NCBI GenBank assembly: GCA_016281405.1
Contig: JAEEIO010000136.1
Coordinates: forward strand, 1-33,747
DNA length: 33,747 nt
DNA from: Clostridiales bacterium
GTDB lineage: Bacteria; Bacillota; Clostridia; Oscillospirales; RGIG5299
Direction: 5' to 3'
Both the position numbers and the translations under genes were made by a program. Below, one piece after another: positions 3,262-26,208 of this stretch. Numbering within the stretch: position 1 is the stretch's first letter; every line of letters starts with the position of its first letter. The notes below the pieces were generated by a model. It saw only the letters and a list, made by a program, of their open reading frames with translations, was not told where the DNA came from and did no database searches.

Positions 3262-3291
3262 AAAAAAGCGTCGGAGCAAAGCGGACTTTGC
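3262..3291. repeat. Direct repeat copy 1 (30 bp) of the tRNA-Gln terminator half
   Basis: AAAAAAGCGTCGGAGCAAAGCGGACTTTGC, identical to 3524-3553. Confidence 0.9.
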
Positions 3292-3294
3292 GGT

Positions 3295-3361
3295 TTCCTC
3301 GGGGGCCCCCGAAAACGGCGAGGCCTCCTCGAGCCGTTTTTGGGGAAAAGGAGGAGCAGCG
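3295..3361 (-). repeat. GC-rich tRNA-associated repeat module, copy A
   Basis: Minus-strand GCTGCTCCTCCTTTTCCCCAAAAACGGCTCGAGGAGGCCTCGCCGTTTTCGGGGGCCCCCGAGGAA; similar to 3430-3495 and 25861-25925. Confidence 0.75.
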
Positions 3362-3429
3362 GAACGAGCCAAGCGGTGATTTTTAATGCGAAGCATAAAA
3401 AATCGCCGCAAGCGATGTGGAGCTTGTGT

Positions 3430-3495
3430 GTTTCTCGGGGGCCCCCGAAAAGGCGAGGCCCTCCGCCGAGGTTTTTTGGGGAAAGGAGGAGCAAG
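3430..3495 (-). repeat. GC-rich tRNA-associated repeat module, copy B
   Basis: Minus-strand GCTCCTCCTTTCCCCAAAAAACCTCGGCGGAGGGCCTCGCCTTTTCGGGGGCCCCCGAGAAA; differs at only a few positions from 25861-25925. Confidence 0.85.
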
Positions 3496-3509
3496 GGAGC
3501 GGGCGTATG

Positions 3510-3560
3510 GCGCTTTTTTGAATAAAAAAGCGTCGGAGCAAAGCGGACTTTGCTCCGACG
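3510..3560 (-). terminator. Terminator of tRNA-Gln (contains direct repeat copy 2, 3524-3553)
   Basis: Reading minus strand directly after tRNA CCA: CGTCGGAGCAAAG-TCCG-CTTTGCTCCGACG followed by CTTTTTT. Confidence 0.9.
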
Positions 3561-14476: not shown

Positions 14477-14632
14477 CTCAAAATATTTCTACTTAATAAT
14501 AGTTTAGCACAACCGAAATGATAAATAAATAGAAAAAAAGGACAAATCATTTTAAAAAAAGACTTTTTTTAGCCGGCAGCGGGTTTTTCCGCCCGAAAGC
14601 AGGGAAGAGCGGCGTGGTAAATATGTAGCCAT

Positions 14633-14744
14633 CGCCGACGACACTCCCGCTCACGGTTCAAATCCTTCTTGCGAACGTAAAACGCCGCCATAAGGCGGCG
14701 CTTTGCGTTTGGCAGGGGCAGAAGGATTATATCGCCCTCGCTTC
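14633..14744 (-). repeat. Orphan tRNA-Trp-derived inverted repeat fragment
   Basis: 27-bp exact inverted match 14646-14672 to 25773-25799; minus-strand 14712-14744 matches 25983-26015 with 2 mismatches in 33; hairpin ACGCCGCC-ATAA-GGCGGCG between. Confidence 0.9.
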
Positions 14745-14787
14745 GCCGCCGCGCTGGCACAATTATCAAATAATAATCTGATAATGC

Positions 14788-25327: not shown

Positions 25328-25377
25328 AGAACGGACAAGTGTTTGAAATCGAAATTCAAATCGCCGAAATAAACGAC

Positions 25378-25417
25378 AAATCCGAACCCAACGCCTATCG
25401 GCTTAGGGTTCGGATTT
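25378..25417. terminator. Hairpin between the RpiB-like gene and tRNA-Leu
   Basis: AAATCCGAACCC-AACGCCTATCGGCTTA-GGGTTCGGATTT, 12-bp perfect stem. Confidence 0.7.
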
Positions 25418-25425
25418 GAACTGTA

Positions 25426-25512
25426 TGGTGCGGGTAACAGGACTTGAACCTGCACGAAGTCGCCCCCACTAGAACCTGAATCTAGCGCGTCTGCCAATTC
25501 CGCCATACCCGC
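25426..25512 (-). tRNA. tRNA-Leu (anticodon CAG)
   Basis: Minus-strand GCGGGTATGGCGGAATTGGCAGACGCGCTAGATTCAGGTTCTAGTGGGGGCGACTTCGTGCAGGTTCAAGTCCTGTTACCCGCACCA; long variable arm, encoded CCA. Confidence 0.97.
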
Positions 25513-25519
25513 GTATTTC

Positions 25520-25560
25520 GTTACTGCAAAATATTAGCACAAATCGCGTGGTTTGTCAAC
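25520..25560 (-). promoter_or_regulatory. Promoter of tRNA-Leu
   Basis: Minus strand TTGACA-N17-TAATAT. Confidence 0.7.
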
Positions 25561-25612
25561 AGCATTATTCCCGATAAAAAATAAAAAATCAAACTATTTT
25601 TCGCCTTTACTC

Positions 25613-25642
25613 TTGACAAAACCGTGGGACGGTAGGTATAAT
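25613..25642 (+). promoter_or_regulatory. Promoter of tRNA-Trp
   Basis: TTGACA (25613-25618) - N18 - TATAAT (25637-25642). Confidence 0.85.
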
Positions 25643-25660
25643 ATACGTTGTCGATAATAA

Positions 25661-25736
25661 AGGGGTATAGCTCAGCTGGTAGAGCAGCGGTCTCCAAAAC
25701 CGCGTGCCGAGGGTTCAAATCCTTCTGCCCCTGCCA
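25661..25736 (+). tRNA. tRNA-Trp (anticodon CCA)
   Basis: AGGGGTATAGCTCAGCTGGTAGAGCAGCGGTCTCCAAAACCGCGTGCCGAGGGTTCAAATCCTTCTGCCCCTGCCA; encoded CCA. Confidence 0.97.
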
Positions 25737-25740
25737 AAGC

Positions 25741-25765
25741 AAAAAGTCACCTTCGGGTGACTTTT
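25741..25765 (+). terminator. Terminator directly after tRNA-Trp
   Basis: AAAAGTCACC-TTCG-GGTGACTTTT. Confidence 0.85.
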
Positions 25766-25860
25766 ATGTTTTGCAAGAAGGATTTGAACCGTGAGCGGGT
25801 CGTCGGCGTAAGCTCCATATCCTTCGCGGCGGCGTAAAACGCCGCCTCTCACTCATTCCG

Positions 25861-25925
25861 CCGCGCCTCCTCTCCCCAAAAAACCTCGGCGGAGGGCCTC
25901 GGTTTTTCGGGGGCCCCTGAAAAAG
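25861..25925 (+). repeat. GC-rich tRNA-associated repeat module, copy C
   Basis: CCGCGCCTCCTCTCCCCAAAAAACCTCGGCGGAGGGCCTCGGTTTTTCGGGGGCCCCTGAAAAA; near-identical to the minus strand of 3430-3495. Confidence 0.85.
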
Positions 25926-26017
25926 CGGCTTGCGACAGAGAAACAGTCCGGGGGACTGTTTCGACGCTCACCCAACCGAGCAAAGCGAGGGCGAGAAAAT
26001 CCTTCTGCCCCTGCCAG

Positions 26018-26062
26018 AATAGGATTGCTGTTTTAACAAATATAGCAGTCCTATTTTTATTT
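26018..26062 (+). terminator. Second terminator hairpin following the duplicated tRNA 3' end
   Basis: AATAGGATTGCT...AGCAGTCCTATTTTTATTT (one G.U pair in stem). Confidence 0.75.
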
Positions 26063-26208
26063 AGTAGCCTAAATATTCCCTCTCCCTGCTATTGCAACCC
26101 CGACAAATCTTATTGCAGCTCGTGCAAATTTAGAAAAATCGGTTGCCTCTCCGCGCGTAATGTGCTAAAATTATGCCGTAAAACATACCGTGAAAGAAGG
26201 TAAACGAC

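Follow-up and report, generated by a model that had tools for sequence, protein, structure and literature searches.

Many families of the bacterial order that includes the host carry short non-coding cassettes (~140–280 bp) behind tRNA or tmRNA genes. We consider it probable that these are mobile, though non-autonomous, members of one family that target the T-loop of tRNA and tmRNA genes for insertion, with arms rewritten for each target. This reading rests on the architecture of the cassettes, the tailoring of their arms, one empty site, tandem arrays, a footprint and compensatory change in the helices of the body, all of which were observed.

A composite cassette behind tRNA-Trp

The window analyzed here is the whole stretch of 33,747 nucleotides. 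As the preliminary description had stated, the 20-nt tail of its tRNA-Trp (25661–25736, called by ARAGORN) is repeated 280 bp downstream, AAATCCTTCTGCCCCTGCCA being identical at 25717–25736, the 3′ end of the gene, and at 25997–26016. By our own estimate, the chance of an exact 20-mer recurring within 2 kb is ~1e-9. The claim that a different terminator follows each tail copy was likewise upheld: the hairpin at 25742–25765 behind the first copy scores as an intrinsic terminator, and that at ~26019–26060 behind the second folds as a strong stem. What had been overlooked are, first, 15 nt at 25776–25790 (AGAAGGATTTGAACC) that repeat the T-arm of tRNA-Trp perfectly in inverted orientation, can pair with either direct tail copy and are the diagnostic feature of the cassettes, and, second, another genomic repeat (~25800–25920) that is nested in the body and makes the segment composite. 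The layout reads tRNA-CCA, terminator, inverted T-arm, structured non-coding body, direct copy of nt 57–76 and second terminator, with the following features:

14621–14746, − strand: orphan fragment without an adjoining tRNA, its parts permuted to body right end, Trp tail, hairpin, inverted T-arm, body left end
25613–25642, + strand: tRNA-Trp promoter, consensus TTGACA-18-TATAAT
25661–25736, + strand: tRNA-Trp (CCA), the target gene
25717–25736, + strand: direct repeat copy 1, tRNA nt 57–76
25742–25765, + strand: inner intrinsic terminator; stem arms reach 25732–25751 and 25756–25775
25776–25790, − strand: T-loop and T-stem 3′ strand of tRNA-Trp in inverted copy, forming the left strand of helix P1
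25791–25799, + strand: body type A, left piece, GTGAGCGGG
25800–25920, + strand: nested second repeat family, elsewhere found straight after the CCA of other tRNAs
25934–25996, + strand: body type A, right part, with hairpin P3 (25940–25962), the right strand of P2 (CGCTCACCC) and a CGAG-rich end
25997–26016, + strand: direct repeat copy 2, the right strand of P1 followed by the acceptor strand and CCA
26019–26060, + strand: outer terminator-like hairpin, probably the ancestral tRNA-Trp terminator (from the fold and by analogy with the tRNA-Arg empty site)

No open reading frame of at least 80 aa was found across 25328–26189, and thus none in 25737–26016, in agreement with the earlier remark that the segment is too short to encode a recombinase. 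No promoter was found inside the Trp cassette, and Rfam 15 at gathering score returned only tRNA matches in the window. The orphan fragment at 14621–14746, in which the Trp tail stands between two body ends, resembles the junction of two tandem units. As tRNA-Trp was not found in the sister assembly (G001), the Trp locus is without a comparison. No empty site is known for the Trp copy.

Two repeat families in the host and sister genomes

A search of the host genome (G000) with the Trp locus returned 32 places, most of them just downstream of tRNA genes, among which two repeat families were distinguished. Family 1 has the layout tRNA-CCA, terminator, inverted T-arm, body, direct copy of the tRNA 3′ end and second terminator, and lies behind 9 of the 32 tRNAs of the genome (Trp, Glu, Ser-GCT, Arg-ACG, Arg-CCG, Gly-CCC, Gly-TCC, Pro-CGG and Leu-GAG). 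Family 2 consists of a CGTCGGAGCAAAG hairpin, TTTTTT and then CTCCTCC...CCCCAAAAAACC...GGTTTTTCGGGG, and stands straight after the CCA of Gln, Lys, Leu-TAA, Leu-TAG, Pro-TGG, Thr-CGT, Val-GAC and Ala-CGC. The 280-bp spacing at Trp arises because family 2 is nested inside a family-1 body. At Ser-GCT, Gly-CCC and Gly-TCC, family 2 likewise begins where the second tail copy ends, and the outer junctions at these loci therefore resemble the plain junctions of cassette-free tRNAs. A further family-2 copy was noted in the window at 3264–3560 (− strand), and beyond family 2 at tRNA-Gln one half of the terminator hairpin is found again.

In the sister genome, the family-1 layout was seen at about 8 of 27 tRNAs: at Arg-CCG, Arg-ACG, Ala-GGC, Ala-CGC, Met and Glu, the last with two identical tandem units, and in incomplete form at Gly-TCC and Gln-CTG. 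The body types at tRNA-Arg-CCG, where orthology is backed by a homologous neighbor gene, differ between the two genomes. In a comparison of the two genomes for an empty site at Ala-CGC, the host contig stops 117 bp past the tRNA. A search for an empty site at Ser-GCT met contig breaks. Other arrangements were noted in G001 as well. A third kind of multi-hairpin repeat (GATATCC..TGATATC) lies behind the terminators of many of its tRNAs (L120–L135), and at its tRNA-Gly-TCC (L129:500–2450) a cassette's left half continues directly into genes for an XRE regulator and two lipoproteins, possibly a cargo-bearing version or a deletion.

Lipoprotein-gene cargo with GCACCCCCT direct repeats was seen between the tail and the downstream terminator of tRNA-Ser-GGA in G142 (L302) and of the tmRNA in G001 (L136); loci with this cargo also carry cassettes. 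The GCACCCCCT motif was discarded as a lead to an integrase-bearing relative, since it was present in only two genomes and one viral contig, the examined stretch of which was without a recombinase.

Arms match the local tRNA while bodies are shared

The arms are specific to the tRNA beside which they lie. Of 68 inverted arms, 55 had a 10-mer (nt 54–63) in perfect agreement with that of their own tRNA, compared to 1 perfect match in 3,904 comparisons with tRNAs that have another 10-mer. At the variable positions nt 57, 59, 60 and 63, own-tRNA matches were 0.99, 1.00, 0.99 and 0.91, against 0.59, 0.38, 0.70 and 0.54 for other tRNAs. The inverted arm tracks its tRNA up to nt 63, with about half matching at nt 64–65. 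The direct copy matched its own tRNA at 0.83–1.00 over nt 57–76 and at 0.73 at nt 56, and helix P1 was complementary in nearly all copies.

Bodies are shared between different tRNAs of the same genome. Identical bodies were found at Arg-ACG and Met in G181 and at Ser-GGA and Ser-GCT in G102. Mean body identity was 0.80 between different tRNAs of one genome versus 0.68 for the same tRNA between genomes, and none of 2,000 label shuffles reached 0.80. Since the arms track the tRNA and the bodies cluster by genome, we infer that the body spreads within a genome with its arms fitted to each target. Gene conversion between bodies could contribute to the similarity within genomes, but would not account for cassettes at new tRNAs.

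Several other derivations of the parts were rejected. The inverted arm is not a direct copy of the T-stem 5′ strand, as at wobble positions (n = 36) the complement of the 3′ strand was favored 21 to 6. The terminator is not part of the target duplication, only 9 of 35 pairs being >90% identical and the inner terminator being new relative to the empty site. A reading of the spacer as a decayed acceptor-strand copy was too weakly supported (5.5 of 13 matches to the own tRNA versus 4.9 to others).

An empty site at tRNA-Arg-ACG

The tRNA-Arg-ACG locus was compared in G142, G196, G102 and G165, all of one genus and with an identical tRNA. In G196 the site is empty, reading CCA/CCAAAAACCCAAGTC(T)ATTTGACTTGGG, with a terminator straight after CCA. 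In G142 it is filled and reads CCA/AAATAACGG..terminator/AAGGGATTCGAAC body GAGAA/TTCGAATCCCTTATGGCGTGCCA/ACAAAAACCCAAGTC(A)ATTTGACTTGGG. The outer terminator is therefore that of the empty site, and the inner terminator arrived with the cassette. In G102 a body-less footprint is left, made up of the new terminator and AAGGGATTCGAACCCCTAATGG, a fused palindrome such as deletion between the two TTCGAA copies would produce; G165 retains a left-end remnant with the new terminator only. Whether these remnants are excision footprints or plain deletions is undecided, and the polarity rests on four genomes only.

That cassettes insert is thus demonstrated by the empty site of a sister cassette at tRNA-Arg, not at Trp. 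The initial proposal that an insertion rebuilt the tRNA 3′ end and displaced the ancestral terminator was borne out at this orthologous tRNA-Arg, and the predicted empty site, with the outer terminator straight after CCA, was met in a relative there, although neither was seen at Trp itself.

Distribution and body fold

Covariance models were used to follow body type B (model R1) and body type A (model R2) across genomes, nearly all of which are multi-contig drafts. R1 matched 44 of 197 genomes of the order, in 28 of 110 genera, and R2 matched 19 of the 197. In the wider class R1 matches were rare (9 of 291 genomes, two of these 9 in the order itself). Among 104 unique R1 matches, 69 lay within 900 bp of a tRNA on the same strand, and for 55 of these the distance was 38–63 nt; the remainder adjoin tmRNA, run off contigs or sit in dispersed repeats with CTTGGCTCCCC-like ends. 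The expectation that copies elsewhere would adjoin tRNAs was therefore met by these 69 and not by some of the others. ARAGORN calls the tmRNA in G102 and G001, and tandem arrays comprise 2–4 units. The exact body-A pattern was present only in the host among 295 genomes of the order, because bodies diverge fast; viral contigs with this pattern were dismissed as chance matches. The folded body module was also observed away from tRNAs, inside dispersed repeats with CTTGGCTCCCC-like ends (L196–L204 in G110, L229, L239 and L243).

To characterize the fold, 32 bodies were aligned by MAFFT and helices P2 and P3 were scored against shuffles. In P2 and P3 together, 93% of cells were paired, and pairing was lost on sliding. 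Two-sided changed cells numbered 96, compared to a shuffled mean of 26, a count reached by 0 of 500 shuffles. These cells count related sequences, and the shuffle controls overstate independence. G-T cells outnumbered A-C cells 7 to 2 in these helices, which hints only weakly, if at all, that it is the tRNA-sense strand that folds. No credible Rfam family was found for the body, even in permissive searches.

Alternative explanations

The cassettes could be remnants of ordinary tRNA-targeted islands, in which class II (T-loop) integrase islands with their own tRNA tail underwent internal deletion and left fused ends. The tandem arrays and the cargo genes at the same place in some loci are consistent with such an origin, as is a direct copy that begins in the T-loop at nt 56, like the sites of T-loop integrases (Ms6, PMC1762012); similar tandem 20-bp ssrA repeats occur in Dehalococcoides islands (PMC3146451). 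We regard this origin as unlikely. Within one genome, unrelated tRNAs carry identical bodies together with tails and inverted arms that differ and match each target; the body is conserved and folded as a module, unlike random island ends; and no recombinase gene was found in any cassette examined. An RNA function under selection, as a tRNA-linked 3′ trailer or a decoy RNA whose arms pair with the tRNA tail or with each other, would account for the compensatory changes in P2 and P3, the complementarity of P1 in nearly all copies and the weak G-T over A-C excess (7 versus 2) on the tRNA-sense strand. It is nevertheless very unlikely to explain the cassettes: the Trp cassette has no internal promoter and has a terminator ahead of it, presence is patchy with body types swapped at the same tRNA between sister genomes, and an empty site and a footprint exist.

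It is also conceivable that no dedicated enzyme is involved, and that tandem duplication together with replication template switching at tRNA hairpins makes the direct and inverted copies. Template switching is an established source of inverted repeats and can perfect imperfect ones (PMC8794818, PMC7202029); the inverted-arm match, moreover, drops sharply past nt 63–65. Alone, these processes cannot bring the same conserved body to dozens of tRNAs, and we give this possibility very little weight.

Proposed mechanism and relation to known systems

In the mobile-cassette mechanism that we favor, position at the T-loop boundary, tailoring, insertion, arrays and loss are observed, and both the enzyme and the copying of the arms are inferences. 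A recombinase or some other enzyme acting in trans would recognize the folded body and the T-loop, and insertion in the T-loop would yield the 3′ tail copy. The product is an intact tRNA followed by the cassette's own terminator, the inverted T-arm, the body, the direct copy of nt 56–76 and the ancestral terminator. The inverted arm may be rewritten to the new target by copying, for example by template-switch repair of an imperfect palindrome, and arrays may grow later through recombination between repeats. A circle with its own tail would give the new tRNA a wrong 3′ end, so the tail copy at least must be target-derived; a preformed circle of this kind also does not explain identical bodies with different target-matched arms. 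Neither an enzyme nor an excised form of the cassette came to light. The Y1 transposase (PF01797) was rejected as the mobilizer, being present in 16 of 44 carriers versus 72 of 197 genomes overall and not found in the G000 and G001 assemblies. Of the original suggestion of a tRNA-targeted element, the insertion is supported, while a role for a tyrosine recombinase has not been demonstrated.

That islands and phages integrate at tRNA ends is textbook knowledge; their integrases are fixed on one or few tRNAs. Islander-type islands, which use a tyrosine integrase (PMC4383910), resemble the cassettes in keeping the whole tRNA, with a displaced 3′ fragment at the far end and a displaced ancestral flank, whereas the cassettes are 140–280 bp, gene-free, carry an inverted T-arm copy and have flanks tailored to many tRNAs. 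Judged as Islander elements, they satisfy the intact tRNA with displaced 3′ fragment and, at tRNA-Arg only, the empty site, but not the integrase within the element. The Dehalococcoides ssrA islands of the serine recombinase DsiB share 20-bp direct repeats starting in the T-loop and tandem arrays downstream of the gene (PMC3146451); these islands, for which a crossover in the T-loop has been proposed, are kilobases long, carry an integration module and use tmRNA only, in contrast to non-coding cassettes at many tRNAs. Phage Ms6 likewise uses a T-loop site, with a 7-bp probable crossover region and an altered attP core that retargets it to another tRNA-Ala (PMC1762012), but it is a full phage with an integrase, and its core was changed by hand rather than naturally tailored. 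MITEs, REP/RAYT and IS200/IS605-derived repeats are also short, palindromic, non-coding and present in many copies. The cassettes lack the fixed terminal inverted repeats of MITEs, their arms being copies of the target tRNA, and show no association with the Y1 transposase expected in carriers of REP/RAYT and IS200/IS605-derived repeats. With regard to integron cassettes, which IntI recombines at attC ends, the ends here are without a constant core. A separate observation concerns G010:C6 (L137), where the tRNA-Trp 3′ half, from anticodon loop to CCA, lies with a terminator away from the gene and resembles an attR-type scar of an anticodon-loop island.

The cassettes were not described in the literature searched, which comprised open-licence papers only, and a prior description elsewhere is possible. 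Only tentatively do we put forward the fuller proposition that, as a new kind of mobile element, a folded non-coding body spreads among the tRNA and tmRNA genes of a genome with no terminal sequence of its own, both arms being rewritten from the target and the tRNA left intact. That sub-300-bp non-coding cassettes occupy many different tRNAs of a single genome, each with fitting arms, and recur across many families of the order poses a testable question of how a mobile element copies its target. The cassettes also offer a structured nucleic-acid substrate, and it should be possible to find the recombinase that acts on it. Duplicated tRNA tails in such genomes need not signal large islands.
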